The notes: generated from the letters alone by a model not told the origin. Counted from the stretch's first letter, positions 13,295 to 63,183 are shown. The stretch is DNA of 64,000 nucleotides from Thermoplasmata archaeon (GCA_026414225.1 JAOAJK010000003.1:62001-126000), one strand, 5' to 3'. Translations and numbers: made by a program.

Positions 13295-14328
13295 GCAGAA
13301 TCGTTTTCTCTTCGACCGAAAAAAGTGCAGGAAAGACGACTGTAATAATCGGGATATGGGCCAGCGCAGAAAAAAAATTCGGATACATGAAACCCCTTGG
13401 AGACCGGCTGGTTTACCAGCGGAAAAGATTGTGGGACTATGATGCCCACCTGCTCTGCAAGATTTTCAACATTCCCGATGAACCGGATACGATGAGTATC
13501 GGGTTTGAGCATGTGAAGTTAAGGTACATGTACAATGCAGAAACAACAGCCAGGCGGGTTCAAGAGATTGCCTTGAAAATTGAGAGGGAAAGAGGCGATG
13601 TATTTGTGGAAACAGGCAAGGACCTGGCTTTTGGGAGTTCTGTTCACATGGATGCAGTTTCCGTGGCTAAATACATAAATGGAAAGATGGTAGTTGTAGT
13701 CAGGGGAGACACTGACACAGTACTGGATTCCCTGGTTTTTATAAAAAAATATCTGCGCCTTGAGGGTGTGAAACTTGCAGGTGTTGTTGTGAATGGTGTG
13801 AAGAATACGGGAGAGTTCGTCGACACTAGCCAGAAGGTGCTAGAAGAAACGGGAATTCCGGTGCTCGGCGTGCTTCCCCATGTGGAGAGTTTGAGCGAGA
13901 CCTCCGTGAGGTATCTTGCGGACAGGCTGTTTGCAAAGGTGCTTTGTGGTGAAAATGCTCTGGATAAGCCAGTAAAGCGATACCTGATCGGAGCAATGTC
14001 CGCGAGCTCAGTTTACCAGCATCCGCTCATCAAGGAAAAATACAACATGCTGATTACGAGCGGTGATAGAACAGATATGATTATTGCTGGAATAGAAAAC
14101 AATGCCTCCTGCATTCTCCTCACGAATAACATTCTCCCGCCCTCCAACATAATCTCGCAAGCGAGTGTGGCGGATATACCCCTTCTGCTTGTTCCGTGGG
14201 ACACTTACACGGTGGCGGTGAAGATAGATAACATGGAACCCCTGCTCACAATAAATGAAAAATCCAAAATTGACCTTATAAAAGAAATCTGTTCAAAGCA
14301 CCTGAAAATCAGTGAAATTCTCTCTTAA
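13291..14328 (+). CDS. BioD-like/DRTGG-domain protein (phosphotransacetylase N-terminal-like, COG0857-type)
   Basis: MSRIVFSSTEKSAGKTTVIIGIW (P-loop), FVETGKDLAFGSSVHMDAVSVAKYI; DRTGG-like C-terminal half. ATGA overlap with upstream gene. Confidence 0.82.
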   Translation: MSRIVFSSTEKSAGKTTVIIGIWASAEKKFGYMKPLGDRLVYQRKRLWDYDAHLLCKIFNIPDEPDTMSIGFEHVKLRYMYNAETTARRVQEIALKIERERGDVFVETGKDLAFGSSVHMDAVSVAKYINGKMVVVVRGDTDTVLDSLVFIKKYLRLEGVKLAGVVVNGVKNTGEFVDTSQKVLEETGIPVLGVLPHVESLSETSVRYLADRLFAKVLCGENALDKPVKRYLIGAMSASSVYQHPLIKEKYNMLITSGDRTDMIIAGIENNASCILLTNNILPPSNIISQASVADIPLLLVPWDTYTVAVKIDNMEPLLTINEKSKIDLIKEICSKHLKISEILS

Positions 14329-16409
14329 TCGGTTTTAAGGACTTCCAACTCCCTCTCCAGGATTTTGGTTTCCTGCTCCTTCAGGGTGCTTTCTCCGAGC
14401 GAGATTAAGAACATTCCCTCGGTTTCAGCCACCATGTCAACTATCTTCCTTATGAACTTTACCACCGCATCAAACCCGTTCGCACTTACCAGAAATTCTA
14501 TGCCATCGAGGGCAATTACGGTGTTCGGGTGAGCGTTCAGTTTCTCTTCAACCGCATAAACAATCTTTTCCAGCGAGTGGCCTATCGTCTCCGCGGTGCT
14601 CTCCTTCTCTGTGAGCCAGTATATTGATGCCTTCTGCAATTTCTCATGCTTTTCGGTAATTCTCTTCGGACTTATCCTGCTGAAAATCATGGACTCATAA
14701 CCCATCTCATGCATTGTCATGACAATCTGGAATACGATGTTTGGTCTTGTTTCCTCAACCAGGTAACTGTGGCCTTTCTGGACATTGTATTTCAATTTTC
14801 CTTTTGTTCCGTATTTATCTGTGTGCTCCTTCAGTGCTTCCTTTACGAGTGCCAGGTCAATTCCCATGTTGCTTATTGACGCGAGGGCAAAGATCCGGTT
14901 GAGGATTATTGAGAGTTCATTCACCGAAAGATTTATCCCAGCTATGTAGTTAATCACCGCCGGCTCAAGCGTGATTCCGTGCTCCTGGGCGTACCTCTTA
15001 AGAATTTCCTTCTTTGTTTCAAAGTCCGGCTCCGAGATGTTAACCAGGAGCCCGCTCGTGAAGCATACAAGAAGTTCGGTTTCAAGTTTTGGAATTTCCG
15101 TCGGTGAGATCTTGGAACCTATCACAACCTGCTTCTCCTCCTTCACGAATCTGATAAGCACCCCTGCTAGCAATTTCTGGAGTTCATCCTTTCCCGCAAT
15201 TTCCTCAAAATTGTCTATGAAAATGGATTCTGCGGTCACTAATCTGGCAACCAAGTTGCTTTGTTTGTCCCTGTATTTCTCAAATACAGTCAAAAGGATG
15301 GGGATATTTGTAAACACGATTCTTTTCCCAGAAAGGGCTCCCTTCTGCAGATTTCCAGCAATTGCATTCAGAAGATGGGTTTTACCGCTCCCCTCGGGCC
15401 CAAATATGAACACAGGATTGTAAAGTTTACCTGGGTACTTGGAAATTCCATGGGCAACAGCATAAGCGAATCTATTGGAGGCACCCACTATAAAATTCCT
15501 CATGCTGAGATTCTCCACAACCTTTCCAAAGGTTTCGTCCTCTGCACTGCATTTCACGCACTGCCGGTCCTTGTCAAGCGGGCTCCCACATCTGGGACAG
15601 AATGGTTCTGGATTTTCTTCCGCCTTTGCCTTGTGCTGGATAATGAGATTATAAACCGCAGCTTCCTTCTTTTTCCTCTCCTCTTCCTCCCTTTGCCTGG
15701 TTATTATTTCCTCAAGTTCCCTGAGATGCTTTACTTCCAGTTCAATTGCCTCTGGCGTTTTTTCCTGTTCCACTCTCTGCCTTAAAGAAGAATACAGCTT
15801 CCGGCTCTCCTCTACCCCTTTCTTTTTTTCCAGTGCATCTTTAAGTTTTGATACCAAATCAGGGAATCTTTCATTTGCCTCAGGATGTTCTTTGATAAAC
15901 TTGTTGAACTCCTCGCTAAGACGGATGAATTCCTCGAACTCGGACAGTATCTTCTCCGCAGATTGTTTATCTTTGAGGGCAATTTTTTCTATCTCGGAGG
16001 TGTCAATTCCCTTGCTGGTCAGCACACGGATTCTGACATCTATCTCACTTTCCTTTTTAATCTCGGTTTTCCCTTCTAGTAAGTTCCGGATTGCCTGCTC
16101 TACCTCTTCAATCCTCACCTGCCCGTGAAGTGTCATCAATGCCTTCGGGTTTTTCGAGAGTTGCCAGATTTTCTTGGATGCTTTCTCGCCCGCGTCCCTT
16201 GCACTTGCGGAAAAATAGAAGGTATCGGTAATCTGCCCTGAATCCAGGAGCACAAAACCTGTTTCAGTTTCATTTTTGTCCAGAAGCGTGACTTCAATGT
16301 AACCCGTGAACTTATGCCTTTTCAACCCGAGGAGAAGATTTTTGAGGGCCTCTTCACTGCCAGCCATCTTTCGAAGCACAAGTCCTTGTGGAACTGTTGT
16401 CTCGTACAT
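14325..16409 (-). CDS. multidomain protein: N-terminal DUF4388/DUF2226-like region, coiled coil, zinc ribbon, DnaA-like AAA+ domain, C-terminal DUF835-like domain
   Basis: 694 aa; CPRCGSPLDKDRQCVKC; NFIVGASNRFAYAVAHGISKYPGKLYNPVFIFGPEGSGKTHLLNAIAGNL...ESIFIDNFEEIAGKDELQ (DnaA-like Walker A/B); C-term KGHSYLVEE...VIALDGIEFLVSANGFDAVVKFI (DUF835). Confidence 0.8.
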   Translation of the reverse strand: MYETTVPQGLVLRKMAGSEEALKNLLLGLKRHKFTGYIEVTLLDKNETETGFVLLDSGQITDTFYFSASARDAGEKASKKIWQLSKNPKALMTLHGQVRIEEVEQAIRNLLEGKTEIKKESEIDVRIRVLTSKGIDTSEIEKIALKDKQSAEKILSEFEEFIRLSEEFNKFIKEHPEANERFPDLVSKLKDALEKKKGVEESRKLYSSLRQRVEQEKTPEAIELEVKHLRELEEIITRQREEEERKKKEAAVYNLIIQHKAKAEENPEPFCPRCGSPLDKDRQCVKCSAEDETFGKVVENLSMRNFIVGASNRFAYAVAHGISKYPGKLYNPVFIFGPEGSGKTHLLNAIAGNLQKGALSGKRIVFTNIPILLTVFEKYRDKQSNLVARLVTAESIFIDNFEEIAGKDELQKLLAGVLIRFVKEEKQVVIGSKISPTEIPKLETELLVCFTSGLLVNISEPDFETKKEILKRYAQEHGITLEPAVINYIAGINLSVNELSIILNRIFALASISNMGIDLALVKEALKEHTDKYGTKGKLKYNVQKGHSYLVEETRPNIVFQIVMTMHEMGYESMIFSRISPKRITEKHEKLQKASIYWLTEKESTAETIGHSLEKIVYAVEEKLNAHPNTVIALDGIEFLVSANGFDAVVKFIRKIVDMVAETEGMFLISLGESTLKEQETKILERELEVLKTD

Positions 16410-16530: not shown

Positions 16531-19182
16531 ATGGATGCACGGCAATTCCCACCAGTCATGGTGGATAGGGAAAAAGAACTTGGGATTTTAAAGCAGGTGA
16601 TGAAGGACGCAGAAGAGGGTAGGGGAAACACTGTTCTGATAAGTGGCGATGTGGGAGTTGGAAAAACCCGGCTTGCCAGCGAATTCGCAGAGATGTGTCA
16701 AAAGGAGGGTTTTACCGTGCTTTCTTCAATATGCATTGGCAACAATGAACCCGCCTATCTGCCGGTGCTCTCAGCCCTTCAAACCTATGCAAAGAAAGTT
16801 CGTGAGCGGTCTGAGATGTATGTTCCCCTCGGGCTCGCCAGTTTTCAGAGCTTGGAAATTGAGGAACTGAATCCGGATACGATGGCAAGGGAAAGGACAA
16901 GGATGCTTGAACATCTCCTGCGTCAGTTCACTGGAATTTCAAGAAAACAGCCGGTGCTTTTTATGGTCGACGACCTGCATCTTGCGGACTCAGCTACCCT
17001 CTCATTTTTCCATTATCTTGGTAGAAACATCAAAACTGAGAAAATTATTGCTATCGCAACCTATGTGGAGGAGTATGCCCGCACTGAAACCATCTTTGCA
17101 AGCACAATGAGGAACATGAGCATCGAACGGTTGTGCACCGTGCTGAAACTTGAGGCCTTCAGCAGAAAAGAGATACAGCAGATCGTTGAACAACTCGGAC
17201 TTGCGCAGGTGGATGAGATTGCAAGATATGTTCATGACAGAACCTCGGGCAATCCCTTTTTCGTGATTGAGTTTTTAACAGCCATCCAGAGTTCAGGATT
17301 GAGTGACATCGAATCCATCAAAAGGATGGAGATGCCAGACACCGTAAAAGACCTTGTGAAGTACCGTTTTTCGGGATTGAGCGAAAAAGCGAGGAAGGTG
17401 CTCACCGCATGTGCCGTGCTGGGAAGGGTGTTTGAGTATGAAGTGCTGGATGAGCTTGCAGGGCTAAAGGAGGAGGAGTTGCTGGATGCCATTGAGGAAC
17501 TTATCTCCCAGAATTTTCTGGTAGAAACAGAGGAATTTGAGGAAGGTTACAAGTTTGTGAGCAACACTGCCCACGAAGTCATATATGAGGATATAACAGG
17601 CGCACGCAGAAGAATCATGCATCAGAAGGCTGCGGAGGTCCTTGAGAAGCTTCACGGAAGGGATGAGCAATTCTGGAGCGAAATAGCACGCCACTACAGG
17701 GCCTGCCACAACAAAACCAAATTTTTAGAGTATGCTGTGAAGGCGGGAAGGTGTGCAGCCCGAAGATTTGCGAACGCAGAGGCCGCAGAACTCTTTGAAA
17801 GTGCAATAGAAGTTCTGGGGGAAACGGAGGAAGAGGTGCAGCAGAAGGTTGAAATTCTGTGGGATCTGGCAGAAGTTCTGGAGCTGGATGGAAAATACGA
17901 TTTCGCACTGGAAGTGCTGAGAAAAAGGTTTGATTACACACTCCAGAGGAACCCTGTGGAGGCAGGGAAAACCTGCAGGAAACTATCTGAAATTTTCATA
18001 AGCAAGGGAGAATATGAGAGTGCTCTGAGAGAGGTGGAAAGGGCGGAGGAGCTGCTTACCGGAATCCCGGAAGCAAGGTTTGAGCTTGCAGGCGTGTGGA
18101 GTGCAAAGGGTTATGTGTACGAACGGAAGGGAGAATACAAGAGCGGAATAGAGTGGCAGATGAGAGCTCTGGCGGTCTTCGAAGAACTAAACGCACAGAA
18201 GGAGGTTGCAAATGCAAATCACAGAATCGGGGCAGGGCACTGGTACATTGGCGAATACGATAGTGCCCTGGAATTTTATCAGAGGGCACTCGAAATTCGT
18301 GAAAAGATCGGGGATGTAAGGGGGGTTGCCAATACCTACAACAACATTGGGGTGGTGTATTATAGCAAGGGGAATTACGAGAGAGCGATAGACTTCTACC
18401 ATAAGGGTGCCGAAATCCAGAATAAACTTGGAGATGTATTCGGTGTGGCAATGACTTATACCAACCTCGGACTGGTATATTCCAACAAAGGGGACTATGA
18501 TAAAGCGGTTGAGTATTACCTCAAAAGTTTAGAGATAGAGGAAAAAATCGGGGATTTGTGGGGTGTGGAATGGTCCTATCAAAATCTAGGTGTCATTTAC
18601 CGTGATAGAGGGGACCATCGGAAAGCCCTTGAATTTTATTCTAGAAGTTTAGCAATCGGCGAAGAAATAGGAGACATGAGGGGAATGGCATGGTCGTATG
18701 GAAACATCGGGAGCGAGTATCTTACCCTCGGACAATTTGACGATGCTCTCAAACTGTTGAAAAAAAGCTTGGAAATCGGAGAAAAAATAGACCAGAAGGA
18801 TATTGTCTGCATTGGCATGCTCACGATTGCTCTGGCTTACTGCAGAAAGGGTGAATTTGAGATATGCGAAGAGTATCTCGAGGAAGGAAAGGAGATTGCG
18901 GATGAACTGGATGCGAAAGATAAGATAGGGTATTATTACATCGTGAGGGGTGAGTGTCTTCTTAAGAAAGGTGCGGTAGCCGAGGGGATTGCCTCGCTCA
19001 GGACGGCAATTGCAATTTTAGAGGAGATGGGTGCCTACGACATCAGCTATTATGAGACCCTGTTTGAAATTGGAAAATGGACAAAGGATAAGCAGATAAT
19101 GGAGAAAGCCCTGGCTTTCTTTGAAAGGATAGGAAATGTTACCCTGATTGAGAAGGCAAGGAAAGAACTGGGAGGAGCATAA
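16531..19182 (+). CDS. large AAA/STAND-type ATPase with TPR repeats
   Basis: 883 aa; MVDREKELGILKQVMKDAEEGRGNTVLISGDVGVGKTRL, VLFMVDDLHLADSATLSFF; C-terminal tandem TPRs (GVANTYNNIGVVYYSKGNYERAIDFYHKG...). Confidence 0.9.
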   Translation: MDARQFPPVMVDREKELGILKQVMKDAEEGRGNTVLISGDVGVGKTRLASEFAEMCQKEGFTVLSSICIGNNEPAYLPVLSALQTYAKKVRERSEMYVPLGLASFQSLEIEELNPDTMARERTRMLEHLLRQFTGISRKQPVLFMVDDLHLADSATLSFFHYLGRNIKTEKIIAIATYVEEYARTETIFASTMRNMSIERLCTVLKLEAFSRKEIQQIVEQLGLAQVDEIARYVHDRTSGNPFFVIEFLTAIQSSGLSDIESIKRMEMPDTVKDLVKYRFSGLSEKARKVLTACAVLGRVFEYEVLDELAGLKEEELLDAIEELISQNFLVETEEFEEGYKFVSNTAHEVIYEDITGARRRIMHQKAAEVLEKLHGRDEQFWSEIARHYRACHNKTKFLEYAVKAGRCAARRFANAEAAELFESAIEVLGETEEEVQQKVEILWDLAEVLELDGKYDFALEVLRKRFDYTLQRNPVEAGKTCRKLSEIFISKGEYESALREVERAEELLTGIPEARFELAGVWSAKGYVYERKGEYKSGIEWQMRALAVFEELNAQKEVANANHRIGAGHWYIGEYDSALEFYQRALEIREKIGDVRGVANTYNNIGVVYYSKGNYERAIDFYHKGAEIQNKLGDVFGVAMTYTNLGLVYSNKGDYDKAVEYYLKSLEIEEKIGDLWGVEWSYQNLGVIYRDRGDHRKALEFYSRSLAIGEEIGDMRGMAWSYGNIGSEYLTLGQFDDALKLLKKSLEIGEKIDQKDIVCIGMLTIALAYCRKGEFEICEEYLEEGKEIADELDAKDKIGYYYIVRGECLLKKGAVAEGIASLRTAIAILEEMGAYDISYYETLFEIGKWTKDKQIMEKALAFFERIGNVTLIEKARKELGGA

Positions 19183-19248: not shown

Positions 19249-19281
19249 ACACTATTTTAATAACCTCCTGAGGTGCATGAT

Positions 19282-19671
19282 ATGACGGGACTGTTGAAGA
19301 AGAACCCTCTCAAAGCATTGAAAGGTGAAAGTGCAGTGGCAGAGCCAGGAACCTACATAGACCTTGGCCAGATGGTCTTTGAGGACGAGGCGAGTGCCCT
19401 CCAGCCAGCAAAGGCAGTGGTGCGGCTCGCAGACATAATCAGATATGAGGATGTGAATGCAATCCTGGGGGAGATATACAAGGGCAACATAGTCATCCTG
19501 GATGTCACTTCAGTTGCAAATGACCAGCTTACGATGAAGCGGATTACGGTGGAGATAAAGAACGCAGTGAAGGAAACTGGCGGAGACATCGCAGGGGTTT
19601 CAAAGAATCTGATTATGATAACTCCTGGTGGAATAAAGATAGACCGCCAGAAGATGAAACTAGGGTTCTAA
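19282..19671 (+). CDS. sepF: archaeal SepF-like cell division protein
   Basis: MTGLLKKNPLKALKGE...TYIDLGQMVF...VVRLADIIRYEDVNAILGEIYKGNIVILDVTSVANDQLTMKRITVEIKNAVKETGGDIAGVSKNLIMITPGGIKI. ATG at 19282 has SD GAGGTG. Confidence 0.85.
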   Translation: MTGLLKKNPLKALKGESAVAEPGTYIDLGQMVFEDEASALQPAKAVVRLADIIRYEDVNAILGEIYKGNIVILDVTSVANDQLTMKRITVEIKNAVKETGGDIAGVSKNLIMITPGGIKIDRQKMKLGF

Positions 19672-50709: not shown

Positions 50710-52479
50710 ATGCTCATCGAAATAGAAAAACTTACCATAGAAAGTTTTCTCGAGATTTTTGAGAGAATCCAGGAGATAAAGCGAAGAGCGGGGATTGAAG
50801 GCATTCTGAACAACCCGCCAGACCTTCTGGAGCGTGCGAAGAGTTATGGCATCCAGTATAAGAATGGCTCGTGGGGCTGGGCCTCGAACATCTGGAGCAG
50901 AAGTGCGGAGGGAAGCGTGGTGGTTGAGAAAAACGACGAACTGAAACCGGAACACAAGGAGCTGATGAGGTCCGTGCTCGAACAAATTCTATGCAGAAAG
51001 CTTATCCAGGTAGATGCGACGATCGGAATGCCCGGCACACCAGTAGCAATGCATGCACGGCTTTATGAGGATGCCCAGTTCCCTGACATTGCCTACCGCT
51101 GGAAGGAACTGAATTTCCCTGCCTCACTTGGAGAGAAACCGGATGCACTTATCTTCCACATTCCCCACTACCTCGAAAATCCAAATGTGCCTGGGAAAAA
51201 AGACATGCTCAAGGTTCTCCGTTTTCCCAACCACAATTACACAATTGTAACTGCCACATCTTATCAGGGAGAGGTAAAAAAAGGGTTTCTGACCCACTGG
51301 ATAAACTATGTTTACCAGAAGGGCGGCACCGGAGAGCATGCCTCGCTCAAGGAATTTACCGTGAAACGGGTGGATGGAACCGAGAAGCGGATTGCAATGT
51401 GTGTCTGGGGCTTGAGTGGAAGCGGCAAATCCACCCACGGGCTCTACATTTTGAACGAACGCACCAACAAAATTTTCATTGAAAAATTCGGCATTGACAT
51501 GGCAAGGTATGTGTATGACCAGGTGATAAAGAACGACGACATCGTCGCAATCTTCCCTGACAGGGTTTATGGCTCCGAAAAGGGCTCCTGGACGAAGACC
51601 GAGGATGTGGATGAGAGCCAGGTTGCAATGTACACTGCGGGGATGTCTCCCAGGGCGCTCCACGAAAACACGGAATTTGATGAAAATGGAAATGTGAGCT
51701 TCGCTGGTAAACTGTTCCAGTACCACGGCAAGCTCAATCAGAATGCGAGGAGCGTATTCTATCTTGAAGACACCGGCTACTATGATGGAAATGTGAACTC
51801 GAGCGTGCCCCTCAACATGGCTGTCTTCATCAGTCCCGGCTACACATCCGACTATGCCTGGGTGAAAATAAACAGTCCAGAATTTGCGGCAAAGGTTCTG
51901 GCAGATGGGAGAACAATCGGGCATCCGGCCCAGAGCCGCATAGGTGTGGGGCAGGAGAAGTATGAGAGCCGCTATTGCTTGCCATTCACGATGGGTGCAA
52001 CCAATGCCCAGCATGTGACAAGGTTCTATGAGTTTATGGTTGCGAGAAAGGATGACCCTGTAGAAGTTTATCTTATCAACACCACGGGGCGTGTGGGCGC
52101 AGAGTACGAATGGGTAGAAAAAGACCTCGGTGGCAGAAAACTTCTCGTGCCCACTGCTAAGTTTGTGGAAAAGGATGGAAAAAAGAAGCCCGTGGGTGGC
52201 ACAGGACCCACCATAGAGGAAACGGAACTCTTTTTGTTCCAGACAGCAAGGGGTGCCGTGGAGTATGCTGCCCATCCAGTGTTTGGAGACCGTGTCCAGG
52301 TGCCAGTTCATGTTGAGGGTCTCCGGGAGGACCGGTTGAAGCAGCTTGACCCATTCACCTACCGCACCAGGGAGGAAATGGAGAAACTGTTGAAAGCCCA
52401 GATAGAACTGAGCAAATACTATCTCGCAGTCCAGTGCCCAGGACTTCCAGTTAAAATTCTGAATGCAATGGACTTCTGA
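50710..52479 (+). CDS. pckA: ATP-dependent phosphoenolpyruvate carboxykinase
   Basis: 589 aa; AMCVWGLSGSGKSTHGLYIL (kinase-1a), FRFPNHNYTIV-type region, SVPLNMAVFISPGY. Confidence 0.88.
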   Translation: MLIEIEKLTIESFLEIFERIQEIKRRAGIEGILNNPPDLLERAKSYGIQYKNGSWGWASNIWSRSAEGSVVVEKNDELKPEHKELMRSVLEQILCRKLIQVDATIGMPGTPVAMHARLYEDAQFPDIAYRWKELNFPASLGEKPDALIFHIPHYLENPNVPGKKDMLKVLRFPNHNYTIVTATSYQGEVKKGFLTHWINYVYQKGGTGEHASLKEFTVKRVDGTEKRIAMCVWGLSGSGKSTHGLYILNERTNKIFIEKFGIDMARYVYDQVIKNDDIVAIFPDRVYGSEKGSWTKTEDVDESQVAMYTAGMSPRALHENTEFDENGNVSFAGKLFQYHGKLNQNARSVFYLEDTGYYDGNVNSSVPLNMAVFISPGYTSDYAWVKINSPEFAAKVLADGRTIGHPAQSRIGVGQEKYESRYCLPFTMGATNAQHVTRFYEFMVARKDDPVEVYLINTTGRVGAEYEWVEKDLGGRKLLVPTAKFVEKDGKKKPVGGTGPTIEETELFLFQTARGAVEYAAHPVFGDRVQVPVHVEGLREDRLKQLDPFTYRTREEMEKLLKAQIELSKYYLAVQCPGLPVKILNAMDF

Positions 52480-54117: not shown

Positions 54118-54127
54118 TTTTATATAT
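54118..54127 (+). promoter_or_regulatory. candidate TATA box upstream of the GTPase operon
   Basis: tttatatatc about 30 bp upstream of ATG 54156. Confidence 0.4.
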
Positions 54128-54155: not shown

Positions 54156-54713
54156 ATGCAGACCAAGAATGTGATAAAATCCGTGATAATGCTGGGCGAT
54201 GCGGCAGTGGGAAAGACAAGCCTGGTGAGAAGGTTTGTCGTTGACCAGTTTGACGACACCTACATAACAACCCTGGGTGCGAAGCCAATGGAGAAGGACA
54301 TCCGGATTGTTGGTAAGGATGCAATAATTGAGTTGCGAATGATTATCTGGGATATCATGGGACAGAAGGACTACGAGAGGGTTCACAGGGACATGTTTGA
54401 AGGTGTCAACGGGGGCATCATTGTGTGCGATGTAACGAAGCCAGAGACACTTAAAAATCTGGGAGAATACTGGATTCCCACATTTTTTGAATATGCGGGC
54501 AAGGTGCCGCTCGTGTTGATGGCAAATAAGATTGACCTTAAAGAACAGTTGAAGATTGAGATAAAGGATATTCAGGCGCTGCTTGCCAGCTTCCAGATGA
54601 AGGATGGTTGCTCTCCGCCATTCTACCTCACATCGGCCAAGACAGGCGAGAATGTCCAGGTTGGATTTGAGAAACTTGGGGAACTCCTGGCAAGGGATAT
54701 GGGACTTCTTTAG
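54156..54713 (+). CDS. Ras/Rab-like small GTPase
   Basis: 185 aa; MLGDAAVGKTSLVRRF (G1), IWDIMGQKDYERVH (G3), MANKIDL (G4), TSAKTG (G5). Confidence 0.92.
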   Translation: MQTKNVIKSVIMLGDAAVGKTSLVRRFVVDQFDDTYITTLGAKPMEKDIRIVGKDAIIELRMIIWDIMGQKDYERVHRDMFEGVNGGIIVCDVTKPETLKNLGEYWIPTFFEYAGKVPLVLMANKIDLKEQLKIEIKDIQALLASFQMKDGCSPPFYLTSAKTGENVQVGFEKLGELLARDMGLL

Positions 54714-54719
54714 AGAGCA

Positions 54720-55004
54720 ATGGCAAAAAAGATGAAAAGACAACCAGAAACCCTCGTCGAATTGATGGACATTATTTTAAGCAGGGTCTGCAGGGGACTG
54801 AAATCTTCAAGGCACCTGCTTGCTGACGCCTGCACGGAAATGGAGGGTTTTGGGATAGACCCTGATGCACCTGAGCCAGAAAAACTCGAAATTCTGATAA
54901 ATTATGTGGAGAACCTCAGAGATGAGGACGGGAATATGGTCTTCAGTGCCGTGGAAATTCAGGAGTACAGAACCCAGCTGAGAAAACTGACCAGAAGGAA
55001 GTGA
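54720..55004 (+). CDS. small helical protein of unknown function in the GTPase operon
   Basis: 94 aa; 6-bp gap after the GTPase stop and 7-bp gap before the AAA/TPR gene. Confidence 0.7.
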   Translation: MAKKMKRQPETLVELMDIILSRVCRGLKSSRHLLADACTEMEGFGIDPDAPEPEKLEILINYVENLRDEDGNMVFSAVEIQEYRTQLRKLTRRK

Positions 55005-55011
55005 GAGACCG

Positions 55012-58000
55012 ATGAATGCAGAGCCAGTTATTCCATTTGTGGACAGGGACCAGGAACTCAAGATAATCCGGGAACTTATCGAGGAGGCAATTTCTGGAAG
55101 AACCTCTGCCCTTCTGGTAAAGGGAGATGTGGGCATAGGAAAGACAAGGTTGATGGAGAAGACACTGGAGATCGCTAAAGGGAAAAATTTCCAGATTGGT
55201 GTGGGCCACGGGGTTAAGGGTGTGCGAATTCCGTTCGTGACCCTAACAGAATGCTTCTCCGAACTGGGTATAGAGCATCTGCTTTCGCCCCAGAAACCCC
55301 CGAGGGTAGATTGCATCTATCTTTCCACGAACAAAGGAATCCTGATTGCAAAGGTCGAACGCGAAAATTTTCAGATTAAGCCAGAAATATTTACAGCAAT
55401 GCTTGCACTCGTGAACCGTTTTGTTCAGGATTCAATGAAACTTATTGACCCTGGCTCCGCCGGCGGTCTGGGGAGGCTGGAGTATGAGGGCTGGTGGATT
55501 GTGGTGGAGCGGCTTGGAGAGTTGAATCTGGTAGCCATTCTCTCCGGCAGAGAAACCGAATTCCTGATCGAGGACATGCGAAATGCCCTGTTTAATATCC
55601 AGAAAAAGTATGGAAAGGTCCTGAAAAACTGGAATGGCGATGCAGACCAGGTGGCTGGAATAGAGGAGGAATTCCGTCACATAATTACCTCTGGTAAATA
55701 CGATGGCATTGACTACGGAAAAGGGGATTTTGCTGCCCAGAGAACCAGCTTGTTCGAAAATGTGACCAGGGGTGTGTGCAGGTTGGCTGCAGAGAAACCG
55801 ATGCTGCTGGTCATAGAGAATATTCACTGGGCTGATGAATCCACCATATCTATGGTATCCTATCTTATCCAGAACCTCAGAAACTCGAATCTTTTCGTGC
55901 TGCTCACTGCAAGAACCGATGAACTTGCAGAGAGTTTTGCAAATGATGTGCTCGGTGAACTTGTGAACTCCGGAAAAATGCAGGAAATTGAACTCCTCGA
56001 GATTCCGAGGGAAGGGGCGGTGGAAATTCTGGAGGCGATTGCAAAGGGTATCGGAAAACACGAAGAGGTGGTAAATGAGATTTTATCGGAAACTGGTGGG
56101 AATCCGTTGTTTCTGATTGAAATCACGAGATACATGATTGCGGTCCATGAGATGGTGCAGGAAGGAGATGTCTGGAAAATAGTGAAAAAGAGGGAACATC
56201 GGATTCCAAAAAAGGTGGAGGAGATTTTTAGAAGGAAGCTTGCCGGGCTCGGGGAGATGCGGGAAATTGTGGAATGCGGTTCCGTGATTGGAGAATCCTT
56301 TAATCCTGACATAGTGGCTGCGGTCTTCGGAATTGACAGGTTCCAGATGCTTAGAAAGTTGAGGAACATTGAGAATTATGGATTGATTACCTTTGCAGGT
56401 AACGACTGTGCGTTTGTGCATACCCTTGCAAGGGAAGTGACATACCAGTCAATACCACAGCCCGTCAGGTTGATGTATCATGAGAAGGTGGCGGAAAGCA
56501 TGGAAAGAATTTACAAGGGCAAAATAGAAGAAAATTTAAGCAGGATTGGTTACCACTATTACAGAGCAGGTAACCCTGGCAAGGCACTGCCCTACCTTCT
56601 GAAAGGTATCAGGAATGCGGAAATTAAGTTTGCGAACGAAGAGGCACTCCAGTTGATTGGCTATGCTAAGGAACTCTGCGAAAACGACGAGAGTTTGAAA
56701 GAGGTTCACATAGCCCTTCTGGAAAAGGAAGGGGACCTTTACCAGATTACCGGAAAATACAGAAATGCGCTGGCGGTTTACTCGTCTCTGCTCCAGCTCA
56801 CTTCAGCTCCCGAAAGAATCTATAGAAAGATGGGGGAATGTGCCCATGCCACTGGGGATTACGATGAAGGGCTGGAGTATGTGAAAAGGGGACTGGAAAA
56901 TGCGGACAAGGCAAACAGGGAGTATGGGAGATTGCGGCTCCTGGAGGGCACAATTCACTACAGAAAAGGTGAGATTGAAGAGGCACAGCAAATCTACCTG
57001 GAAATCCTTTCCGTGTTTGAGGAGTTCGGGGCAGAGGAGAAGGACAGGGCGTTGCTCCTCAACAACCTCGGAAATGTTTATTTTGAGAAGAGGGAGTTAA
57101 AAAAAGCCCTGGATTACTACAGGATGAGCCTGGCAATAAGGGAGAAAATCAACGAGCATCTCGCGATTGCAGGATCCTACAATAACATAGGGATTGTTTA
57201 CAGATACATGCATGAATACAGCACGGCCCTTGCCTATTTCCAGAAAAGCTTGCGGCAGGCAGAAAAATGCGGGCATCTCTGGGGCATGATTTTTCCGCTG
57301 GATAACATGGCAGACCTCTACTTTGCGGTGGGGGATGTGGTAAAATGCGTCCAGACATACAGAACTGAAATCCTGTACCTGAAGAAAATTGAGAACTTGC
57401 ATGCCCTTATAAACACTTACGGAAAGCTGGCAAAAGTTTATGCCAAGCATGAGAAATTTGATGAGGCAATGGAATGTCTTGTAGAATCTGGGGGTTATGT
57501 GCTGAAAACCGATAACCCGTTGCTTCTTGCGGGCCATTTCCTGGCACATGTCGCGGTTTACAGGGAACAGGGGAAGCTTGAGCGGGCACTTGAGTTTGTA
57601 GATAGAGCTCTGGTAGAGCTAAAAAAGGTGAGGAATGACGAGCGGGGTAAAATTTTGCTTTTGAATGCACTTTCAGACAAAGGTGACCTGCTCTATTTGC
57701 TGGGAAGAAAATCAGAGGCAGAAAAAATCTGCACTGCAATTTTCAACACCTTCTCTACAATGGATGTGGCAAAGGCCGCTGGTTATGCCTACATCACGAG
57801 TGGGAAAATTCTGGCTGAACAGGGAAAAATTGGGGAGGCAAGAAGCAAGTTCATCCAGGGTGTGGAGGCCCTGAAACTGTATGGTGGTGAGTACAGAACT
57901 GCCTGTGCCTACCTTGCGTGGGGGATGGTAGAAAAGGAGGCAGGAAATAAAGAGGAGGCAGCGAAGCTGGTTGATAGGGCAATTAAAATGTTTACCATGA

Positions 58001-58050
58001 TGAAAATGAAGCGAAAAATAGAGGAAGCGAAGAAAATTTTTGAGAGTTAG
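55012..58050 (+). CDS. large AAA/STAND ATPase with an inserted roadblock/longin-like domain and TPR repeats
   Basis: 1012 aa; ALLVKGDVGIGKTRLMEK; insertion YLSTNKGILIAKVERENFQIKPEIFTAMLALVNRFVQDSM...RLEYEGWWIVVERLGELNLVAILSGRE...YGKVLKNWNGD; LLVIENIHWADEST; TPRs. Confidence 0.88.
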   Translation: MNAEPVIPFVDRDQELKIIRELIEEAISGRTSALLVKGDVGIGKTRLMEKTLEIAKGKNFQIGVGHGVKGVRIPFVTLTECFSELGIEHLLSPQKPPRVDCIYLSTNKGILIAKVERENFQIKPEIFTAMLALVNRFVQDSMKLIDPGSAGGLGRLEYEGWWIVVERLGELNLVAILSGRETEFLIEDMRNALFNIQKKYGKVLKNWNGDADQVAGIEEEFRHIITSGKYDGIDYGKGDFAAQRTSLFENVTRGVCRLAAEKPMLLVIENIHWADESTISMVSYLIQNLRNSNLFVLLTARTDELAESFANDVLGELVNSGKMQEIELLEIPREGAVEILEAIAKGIGKHEEVVNEILSETGGNPLFLIEITRYMIAVHEMVQEGDVWKIVKKREHRIPKKVEEIFRRKLAGLGEMREIVECGSVIGESFNPDIVAAVFGIDRFQMLRKLRNIENYGLITFAGNDCAFVHTLAREVTYQSIPQPVRLMYHEKVAESMERIYKGKIEENLSRIGYHYYRAGNPGKALPYLLKGIRNAEIKFANEEALQLIGYAKELCENDESLKEVHIALLEKEGDLYQITGKYRNALAVYSSLLQLTSAPERIYRKMGECAHATGDYDEGLEYVKRGLENADKANREYGRLRLLEGTIHYRKGEIEEAQQIYLEILSVFEEFGAEEKDRALLLNNLGNVYFEKRELKKALDYYRMSLAIREKINEHLAIAGSYNNIGIVYRYMHEYSTALAYFQKSLRQAEKCGHLWGMIFPLDNMADLYFAVGDVVKCVQTYRTEILYLKKIENLHALINTYGKLAKVYAKHEKFDEAMECLVESGGYVLKTDNPLLLAGHFLAHVAVYREQGKLERALEFVDRALVELKKVRNDERGKILLLNALSDKGDLLYLLGRKSEAEKICTAIFNTFSTMDVAKAAGYAYITSGKILAEQGKIGEARSKFIQGVEALKLYGGEYRTACAYLAWGMVEKEAGNKEEAAKLVDRAIKMFTMMKMKRKIEEAKKIFES

Positions 58051-60739: not shown

Positions 60740-61588
60740 ATGAGGATGGATGCGCAATCCGCAGGGGAAAAATTCGCAGCTCTGGAGAAAAAAATAACAG
60801 GGCAGGGCAGAATTCTGATTGCATTCTCTGGCGGTGTGGACAGTGCGGTGCTTGCCCATCTGGCCAGGGCAGAAAACCCCCTGTGTGTTTTCGTATTGGA
60901 CGAAACCGTAAGCAAGGAAGAGTATGAGCAGGCAAAAACCACAGCAGCAGGCCTTGGGGTGCAACTCCAGGTTCTGGAACATAGCATAATGGATGAAGAG
61001 TTCTGCAAAAACACTGTGGAGCGATGCTATCACTGCAAGAAAGCAATGATCGGAGCATTGAAAGAATTTGCTCGTAAAAACGGAATAAACTGCATTGCGA
61101 TGGGAATCACAACCTCGGATTTTAAAGAGTACAGACCAGGCATCAAAGCCGGATACGAGGAGGGAATCTGGTATCCATTCGTGGATTTTGGAATTTCGAA
61201 GGAGGAAGTGCGAGAATATGCAAGAAAGCAAGGTCTTGGAGTTGCGGAAAAGCCCGCGAATGCCTGTCTTGCGTCCAGAATTGCCTACAACCAGAAAATC
61301 ACAACCGAGTTGCTTATGCGAGTGGATGCCGCAGAGAAGTTTTTGCATGGTCTCGGCTTTAAGGTTGTGCGTGTCCGCGTGCATGGAAATGATGCCAGGA
61401 TTGAACTGGGCAAAAATGAGTTTGCGAAGGCATTCTCCACCGACCTCCTTCAGAGGATTGCAAAAAAATTGCACGAACTTGGTTTTGTCCATGTCTCCCT
61501 AGATATGGATGGCTACAGGCCGGGAAGCATGAACGAGGGCATCACCCAGCCACAGATCGGACAAGCGCGGGGGGAGAAGCGGCACTAA
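60740..61588 (+). CDS. larE: LarE-like ATP-dependent sacrificial sulfur transferase (PP-loop)
   Basis: RILIAFSGGVDSAVLAHLA, CYHCKKAMIGALKEFA, KPANACLASRIAY. Start at 60740 preferred over the 60575 start. Confidence 0.88.
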   Translation: MRMDAQSAGEKFAALEKKITGQGRILIAFSGGVDSAVLAHLARAENPLCVFVLDETVSKEEYEQAKTTAAGLGVQLQVLEHSIMDEEFCKNTVERCYHCKKAMIGALKEFARKNGINCIAMGITTSDFKEYRPGIKAGYEEGIWYPFVDFGISKEEVREYARKQGLGVAEKPANACLASRIAYNQKITTELLMRVDAAEKFLHGLGFKVVRVRVHGNDARIELGKNEFAKAFSTDLLQRIAKKLHELGFVHVSLDMDGYRPGSMNEGITQPQIGQARGEKRH

Positions 61589-63183
61589 ACTGTCCTTGTT
61601 TTATCAAATTCCTTTCTCAGCGTGTACATGTCCTTCTCATCAAACGCCTTGGGGCTTATTGGCACGAGCACAGTCGCATGGTGCATCGCAGCCACATCAT
61701 TAACCTTCTTCATGAATTTGAGTGCATCCAGAAAATTGTTTCCGAGCACAAGATTCTCAAACCCATCAAGCAGAATTACTGCATTCTTGTTGCTTTTGAT
61801 GAAGGATGTGATTGCCCTCATTATTTCGAATTCCATGCGGCTTGGCTTCACCACGGGCACCGCAGGGGTCTCCGTGTCCGAAAGCCAGTAGATTGTGGCA
61901 CTCCCGATTCCATACTTCTCTCGGACTTTGTCCGGGTAGGTGGTGGTGATGCACAGCCCTGGCGAGTCCTTTATCATATCTCCAAAGATTTCAAACGCCT
62001 TCTCGGTTTTGGATTCAAATATGAGGTAGCTGTATCCCTTTTCGAGCGGCACCTCAATCTGCTGCTGTGCAGGGAGTTGGGGACTCTCCGCTACCTCCTT
62101 CTCTTCCTTCACATCTTTCGGTGGCAACGGTGCTGGCTCTTCCTTTCTCTCCCTCAAGATTTTGCCCGTGATTTCAGAGGTAATCGCAGCGTAGAAGGGG
62201 AGCAGCAATTCTTCTTTTGGACAGTAAAATCTCAGGATCAACCTTGCTTCCCCACCCTCCTCAATCGTTTCCACATAGGCCGCGTAAAGATTATCCCAGT
62301 GGTCATGGGCGAAGAATTTGGTGACTGCACGGAAAAATCGGGCGTCCTTGACTGACTGGAAGGGGACCTGATACATGTTTCTCTCTCTGATTACATCGCA
62401 TATGATCCGATGAAGGGTTTCACCGCTGAACCTTATGTTCTTTATTTCCTTCTCGATTTTCCTCATCGTGTGGGTTGCCACGCGCCAGTGCTCCTCTATC
62501 ACCTCTCTCGGATAAAGGGCTGTGAATTCTATGCTCAGATATTTTGGCTCCGTTTCAATGGCAACTTTTTCGTTTCCATCAGAATACCGGATTTTTGCCC
62601 GAACTGGCTCATTTCTGAATTCTTTTAGCGGTTCAAGCTCAAACATGATTCTTGCATGTTCATCTGGCTCAATGTATTTTATCTGCTTGGCGTCTGTTTC
62701 TGGCTTAAGTTTCTCCTTGTTTGCAACCAGCTCTATGTTCACATTCTCAATTCTCTTCCCAGTCCGGTTACCTATATTCAGGGCATAATGGACCGCGGTG
62801 TCTTTTATGTAAAGGGCAGGAATTACCTCAAGTGTCTGGGCTGGCTTCGCCTCCTGTTTTTCCTCTTCTTTTTTTACCCGCATCCAGTAGACCTCATGCC
62901 CGCAGGTTCTGCATACTCCGAGGCCATTCGATGCAAAGGTCACATCGCGGCTCTGGCATCTCGGGCATATGAGGAAGATCTGCCTTGCACCGCAGATTCT
63001 GCATACAATTTCTCCCGTATCTAGATGTTCGACGCTGTTGCTGCCGCAGTGGGTGCATCTTTTCCAGATAAATTCATAGCCGCAGGCAGCACATTTCCCA
63101 TTTCCCTCATCGTAGAATACGAGGCGTGTTCCACCGCATCTGCTGCACTTCCCATGGGTCGGCTTGTAGATATATTCCTCCAT
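61585..63183 (-). CDS. multi-zinc-ribbon protein with C-terminal DUF835-like domain
   Basis: 532 aa; repeated CxxC pairs (CSRCGGTR..CAACGYE, CTHCGSN..CRICGAR, CPRCQSR..CRTCGHE); C-term GYSYLIFESKTEKAFEIFGDM...VILLDGFENLVLGNNF. Confidence 0.85.
   Translation of the reverse strand: MEEYIYKPTHGKCSRCGGTRLVFYDEGNGKCAACGYEFIWKRCTHCGSNSVEHLDTGEIVCRICGARQIFLICPRCQSRDVTFASNGLGVCRTCGHEVYWMRVKKEEEKQEAKPAQTLEVIPALYIKDTAVHYALNIGNRTGKRIENVNIELVANKEKLKPETDAKQIKYIEPDEHARIMFELEPLKEFRNEPVRAKIRYSDGNEKVAIETEPKYLSIEFTALYPREVIEEHWRVATHTMRKIEKEIKNIRFSGETLHRIICDVIRERNMYQVPFQSVKDARFFRAVTKFFAHDHWDNLYAAYVETIEEGGEARLILRFYCPKEELLLPFYAAITSEITGKILRERKEEPAPLPPKDVKEEKEVAESPQLPAQQQIEVPLEKGYSYLIFESKTEKAFEIFGDMIKDSPGLCITTTYPDKVREKYGIGSATIYWLSDTETPAVPVVKPSRMEFEIMRAITSFIKSNKNAVILLDGFENLVLGNNFLDALKFMKKVNDVAAMHHATVLVPISPKAFDEKDMYTLRKEFDKTRTV

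Follow-up and report, generated by a model that had tools for sequence, protein, structure and literature searches.

Control of small GTPases by longin or roadblock domains is regarded as characteristic of eukaryotes and rooted in Asgard archaea, alongside the bacterial case of MglA-MglB. The fold class serves as a GTPase platform in MglB, Ragulator, TRAPP, and Mon1-Ccz1 (PMC10933270); prokaryotic GTPases include the MglA and Rup families, for which co-occurrence with MglB was described (PMC4316618), and in MglA the G3 Asp is replaced (Thr78; PMC3000849). Among archaea, the GTPase genes of the Asgard representative MK-D1 generally lie outside operons that contain roadblock, longin or TRAPPC3 genes (PMC10933270), and one Rab-like protein each was reported from a Thermoplasmatales archaeon and from Aciduliprofundum (PMC4915359). 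Here we describe a three-gene operon at positions 54,156-58,050 of a 64,000-nt stretch (the window) from a Thermoplasmata archaeon (GCA_026414225.1 JAOAJK010000003.1:62001-126000). It encodes a Ras/Rab-like small GTPase, a 94-aa helical protein, and a 1012-aa signal transduction ATPase with numerous domains (STAND) that carries an inserted domain (INS) of predicted longin/roadblock-like fold. Our favored and, we believe, probable reading is that the operon combines a small-GTPase switch with its cognate longin/roadblock-type platform, built into the STAND ATPase, such that INS serves as the docking site of the GTPase and either controls or senses the nucleotide state of the latter.

The ATPase gene (55,012-58,050; all operon features given here are on the plus strand) encodes an AAA_16-type NTPase (2.4e-18) with both Walker motifs, followed by a C-terminal array of tetratricopeptide repeats (TPR; TPR_12, 1e-40) at residues ~574-1005 (56,731-58,026), which is matched by Pfam TPR families and by TPR structures in the PDB; by its sequence, the protein belongs to the STAND/AAA-TPR class. 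Walker A is GDVGIGKT (residues 38-45; 55,123-55,146), with G38, G41, G43, K44, and T45 invariant in the paralogue alignment, and the Walker B region is LLVIENIHWAD (residues 265-275; 55,804-55,836), with W273 and D275 invariant. Between them lies INS, about 130 aa long (residues 98-226; 55,303-55,689), as the initial annotation had described for this ATPase-TPR protein. INS is carried by paralogues in the same genome; two other paralogous AAA-TPR ATPases (at 16,531-19,182 of the window and at locus L024) lack it and are continuous exactly at the insertion point, and INS is therefore a discrete module; its occurrence in paralogues, this precise absence, and the gene order shared with the sister species (see below) show that it did not arise by chance. 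The same ATPase family was also present in a Thermoplasmata archaeon in a contig scan (one named locus).

An AlphaFold2 (AF2) model of INS alone, built from the window sequence and three homologues from L051, has the order ββαβββαα (mean predicted local distance difference test score, pLDDT, 78.8; predicted TM-score 0.78), with strands (E) and helices (H) assigned by DSSP as E9-17, E22-27, H35-54, E63-69, E72-79, E82-89, H94-116, and H122-130. The modelled domain thus has the longin order without an N-terminal helix, and the general features of the longin/roadblock fold: a five-stranded sheet, a central helix, a ββαβββ core, and C-terminal helices. Searched against the PDB with Foldseek, all 50 of the 50 matches listed were longin, roadblock or TRAPP structures (probability 1.00; 31 with E<0.001), the longin matches including AP sigma, COP zeta, VAMP7, Sec22b, and SYBL1 (TMt 0.67), and the roadblock matches including LAMTOR2/3/4/5, dynein LC7, MglB of the MglA-MglB complex (3t12), and Asgard Roadblock2. 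Comparison of the INS profile with canonical archaeal roadblock proteins (Robl_LC7) gave an hhalign probability of 59 (P=9e-5), in register over ββα only; the score of 30.8 exceeded those of 40 shuffles (at most 18.7) and of a reversed control. Searches of Pfam, NCBIfam, PADLOC, and PDB sequences returned no named family for the insert: Robl_LC7 (PF03259) did not match it, its best match among the relatives being L089 (E=0.073, 13.2 bits vs. a cut-off of 23), and no Pfam longin family passed its cut-off, the relative at L096 matching Fuz_longin_1 at E=0.095 only. Weak matches of the insert to SlmA and to designed proteins were taken as chance. The model predicts that INS belongs to the roadblock/longin fold class, of which it would be a divergent member, in agreement with the resemblance that had been proposed for the insert.

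Could the insert be no more than an unusual AAA lid or subdomain, the outcome that had been named as refuting the annotation? Its site between Walker A and B is one where several P-loop ATPases carry insertions, as in the RUVBL-type matches, but the longin/roadblock match was found both alone and in the ATPase context: in an AF2 model of a 345-residue ATPase region (pLDDT 81.0), INS is flanked by the Walker A helix and the Walker B strand, and Foldseek returned AAA/P-loop and longin/roadblock structures together. Moreover, there are proteins in which this domain stands by itself or forms a receptor tail, with no ATPase present (see below), and there are paralogous ATPases without the insert. 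We therefore rejected the lid explanation, which is highly improbable.

INS appears as a mobile family in three settings. It is inserted in STAND-TPR ATPases, of which the window genome has eight or nine; it occurs on membrane proteins of about 200 aa encoded directly upstream of a GTPase (L089, L093, L096, and L105); and it forms the C-terminal cytoplasmic tail of large receptor-like membrane proteins (L094, L088, L106, L110-L126, L195, L201, and L206). The ectodomains of the latter vary (DUF11, PKD, Kelch propeller, Ig-like, and other repeats) while the INS tail stays constant; at L195, for example, three INS membrane proteins are encoded in a row beside a gene for a GTPase with a fused C-terminal domain (CTD). 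Two further arrangements were observed. About eight INS-bearing STAND-TPR ATPases are encoded in tandem on one strand at L197 and L198 (G143 C19:13000-47000), beside GTPase genes, one of them with a detached CTD; and a 2181-aa open reading frame (ORF) at L196:2294-8836 contains three INS copies about 505 aa apart and no Walker A.

The association of INS with the GTPase was examined in 300 genomes of the class (family codes f1, f2, and so on denote groups within this set; per-genome counts reaching about 12 are to be read as at least that number). INS was found in 134 of the 300 genomes and the GTPase in 140: both in 133, INS only in one, the GTPase only in seven, and neither in 159 (Fisher p 2e-75, a value inflated by phylogeny). 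Their presence changes together within families f2, f15, and f19, and three of the seven GTPase-only genomes have INS when a deeper profile is used. As a specificity control, canonical roadblock genes were found in 78 of 100 genomes, many of which (in f2, for example) have none of these GTPases. The genes are also physically linked: among the 25 genomes that have a single GTPase and a single INS, the two genes are no more than 4 kb apart in 11, vs. 0.12 expected, and, counted by family, single-copy pairs are linked in three of eight (p ~1e-5). Altogether, GTPase-INS neighborhoods (within ~4 kb) were found in 12 families (f1, f2, f5, f11, f13, f16, f17, f19, f20, f21, f25, and f28), involving either STAND or membrane INS proteins, with the linked genes mostly on the same strand and some convergent. 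The exact order GTPase, 94-aa protein, INS ATPase is kept in the sister species. Gene order, which had been named as a check on the annotation, is thus conserved in a close relative, and GTPase-INS linkage in 12 families of the class. Since the GTPase tree groups neither the window GTPase nor the STAND-linked GTPases of f1 with the STAND-linked GTPases of f20, the pairing appears to recur rather than to descend from one operon; vertical inheritance of a single operon was thus unsupported.

INS might instead be a longin/roadblock-fold domain for oligomerization or for sensing small ligands (a profilin- or GAF-like use) that makes no contact with the GTPase, its co-occurrence reflecting a shared pathway or lineage. 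The roadblock/longin and GAF/PAS folds are related, some of these domains bind no GTPase, and most INS genes of the window genome are unlinked to GTPases; but such a role would hardly explain why the two genes adjoin repeatedly, in 12 families that differ in INS architecture, or why they are linked even in genomes with a single copy of each, and we regard it as improbable. A role in phage defense was also considered, as STAND-TPR proteins can be defense proteins, and rejected: PADLOC matched generic TPR models only, and the wide spread in the lineage together with receptors disfavors it. A search of viral contigs gave no match.

The GTPase gene (54,156-54,713) encodes 185 aa with intact G1-G5 motifs, including GDAAVGKTS, WDIMGQ, NKID, and SAK, and matches Pfam Ras at 4.7e-31, which together place it in the Ras superfamily; the motifs and the Ras/Rab-like assignment are as initially annotated. 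Its nearest relatives in the PDB are a Thorarchaeota Rab (7ezb, 7.8e-23) and Ypt7 (4.5e-22). It lacks the prenylatable C-terminal Cys of eukaryotic-type Rabs (the protein ends in GELLARDMGLL) and has no fused C-terminal domain. Since G1-G5 are intact and G3 reads WDIMGQ, with the catalytic-Gln position kept and without the MglA-type replacement of the Asp (which is kept in 78 of 79 relatives), the window GTPase is not MglA-like. The genome has seven such GTPases, four of which are ~280-310 aa long with an extra C-terminal domain. In f20, the GTPases linked to STAND-INS genes (L058, L059, and L064) have Arg at the catalytic-Gln position of G3 (WDVLGR or WDILGR), a loss which shows that the predicted hydrolysis chemistry varies among GTPase-INS pairs. 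At L022:1316-2832, L007, which is the most divergent of the genome's GTPases, runs into a 342-aa DUF835 protein and overlaps its start; DUF835 is also encoded in the window at 14,325-16,409, with a DnaA-type ATPase domain, and at 61,585-63,183.

The 94-aa protein (54,720-55,004) is helical, as annotated, but it is not merely that: it is homologous to the CTD fused to most of the related GTPases. A CTD profile built from the ~280-aa GTPases, with the 94-aa protein left out, found it in the six-frame ORF set at E=2.4e-6, with 24.8 bits vs. at most 7.9 bits for 2000 shuffles of its sequence, and hhalign gave a probability of 91 vs. at most 10 for shuffles. Because these scores lie far above those of the shuffles, we consider the protein a detached CTD, the product of a split GTPase-CTD gene; its orthologue in the sister species is 77% identical. 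Other detached CTDs are encoded by G129 (L204:7879-8205, immediately before an INS ATPase gene), G143 (L197), and G108 (L156), and the order in f20 (L058, L059, L064, and L099), a fused GTPase-CTD followed by a STAND-INS gene, is the window order with its first two parts joined. As judged from this homology, the CTD is part of the GTPase unit. Small stand-alone helical proteins at L023:10642-10890 and L021:990-1232 weakly resemble the CTD (E 9e-4 and 1.1), and possibly belong to a wider domain family.

How might such a unit work? As INS is shared by receptors and STAND ATPases, accompanies the GTPase, and belongs to a fold class of GTPase platforms, we infer that it binds the GTPase directly and passes on a sensed signal. 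Once the TPR array has sensed a ligand and the STAND ATPase has opened in an ATP-dependent manner, INS would be uncovered or re-oriented; this would change the loading of the co-transcribed GTPase, INS possibly acting as a guanine nucleotide exchange factor (GEF) or GTPase-activating protein (GAP), and the detached CTD would rejoin the GTPase in trans. Because INS elsewhere is the cytoplasmic tail of receptors with varied ectodomains, the signal would most likely run from the sensor (TPR/STAND or ectodomain) to INS, to the GTPase, and to an effector. The flow could also be reversed, with INS as an effector site that the GTP-bound GTPase binds to switch the STAND ATPase or receptor: GTPases can recruit longin/roadblock domains (the AP and COPI subunits among the top matches act in Arf-regulated coats), STAND ATPases normally await an activating input, and the lost G3 Gln in f20 might suit a constitutively GTP-bound adaptor. 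Yet an output role for INS, also the tail of proteins with varied ectodomains, is more natural there, and we consider the reversed flow rather unlikely.

Several observations weigh against a GTPase-docking platform built into the ATPase. The AF2 model derives from four sequences only and its TM-scores are moderate (0.4-0.67), and INS matches no Pfam family above cut-off. INS was not detected in a few genomes with the GTPase (G008, G070, G112, G267, and G288), the single GTPase and single INS are unlinked in f22, f29, f30, f32, and f33, and only one of the seven GTPases of the window genome adjoins an INS gene. In addition, the Gln-to-Arg change in f20 implies that ordinary Ras-type hydrolysis may not be needed in every pair. 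A self-contained GTPase module, as initially proposed, is too narrow a description: the genome has seven GTPases and eight or nine INS ATPases, mostly unlinked, and INS serves elsewhere as a receptor tail. The proposal that the insert would regulate the GTPase is supported, and the signalling system in question appears to extend across the lineage rather than to be confined to a single operon.

The window is part of contig C33 of a 1.9 Mb genome (93.6% complete) that encodes archaeal-type EF-1A and GAPDH. The three ORFs are separated by gaps of 6 and 7 bp, as annotated, and are likely read as a single transcript. About 30 nt upstream of the GTPase start lies a TATA-box-like element, TTTATATA (54,119-54,126), the only one in this gene group, which may act as the promoter; it has four exact matches in the window vs. 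0.64 expected from shuffles, a count reached in none of 100 shuffles. Elsewhere in the window, the STAND AAA-TPR ATPase without INS (883 aa, 16,531-19,182) is followed 90 bp downstream by a SepF homologue (19,273-19,671; PF04472, 4.3e-14), and a divergent 589-aa PEPCK_ATP-like protein (5e-15; 50,710-52,479) is encoded beside a helix-turn-helix gene and a type-II GAPDH gene, in an order kept in the sister species.

Our literature search, which was not exhaustive, found no paper on the INS family or its link to GTPases. There is about an even chance that these genes represent a receptor- and STAND-coupled small-GTPase system native to a large non-Asgard archaeal lineage, in which a mobile INS transmitter on STAND ATPases and on receptors with interchangeable ectodomains feeds Ras-like GTPases with their own CTD. 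If so, such a system would be the archaeal equivalent of receptor-to-Ras signalling, and might take the place of two-component systems in the window organism and similar species. No response-regulator receiver domain (PF00072, E<=1e-5) was found in the window genome or its sister (G000 and G001, each with seven small GTPases), for which reason GTPase-INS may be a main signalling route in the window genome; many other GTPase-bearing relatives have response regulators, dozens in some (e.g., G290). If GTPases and longin-like partners, receptor forms included, are systematically paired and gene-linked in a further archaeal phylum, the view of the places and the number of times at which such signalling originated would change. 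The matched GTPase-partner pairs, which Asgard genomes mostly lack, make partner specificity, GEF or GAP action, and the path to eukaryotic platforms directly testable.

Compared with described systems, the likeness to MglA-MglB is a Ras-like GTPase tied by genome linkage and co-occurrence to a roadblock-fold partner, MglB (3t12_C) being itself among the structural matches of INS; unlike MglA, the window GTPase keeps the G3 Asp, and whereas MglB is a free homodimer, INS occurs as an insert or receptor tail, shows no N-terminal roadblock helix in its model, and falls below the Robl_LC7 cut-off. The conservons of Streptomyces (CvnA-D) similarly place a sensor-like membrane protein, a roadblock protein, and a small GTPase in one operon, but here there is no histidine-kinase-like CvnA or CvnC (the window operon contains only the GTPase, CTD, and STAND genes), and the longin/roadblock-like domain is fused to a receptor or STAND ATPase. 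Ragulator-Rag, Mon1-Ccz1, and TRAPP share the GTPase-platform fold class (LAMTOR, VAMP7, AP-sigma, and TRAPP are Foldseek matches), but are multi-subunit eukaryotic complexes without a STAND ATPase or receptor tail. Asgard archaea likewise have Rab-like GTPases with roadblock/longin proteins, and a Thorarchaeota Rab is the PDB structure that the window GTPase matches best; in contrast to MK-D1, where the genes are generally unlinked (PMC10933270), operon linkage recurs here, in a non-Asgard lineage. The Rab-like singletons of Thermoplasmatales and Aciduliprofundum probably belong to the same broad group (Rab-like, archaeal, and without the prenylation Cys), but each species was reported to have a single copy and no partner (PMC4915359), whereas here up to many copies occur with a partner domain and a CTD. 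A small GTPase with a longin/roadblock-type platform is of a known kind; the architecture and the lineage are new.

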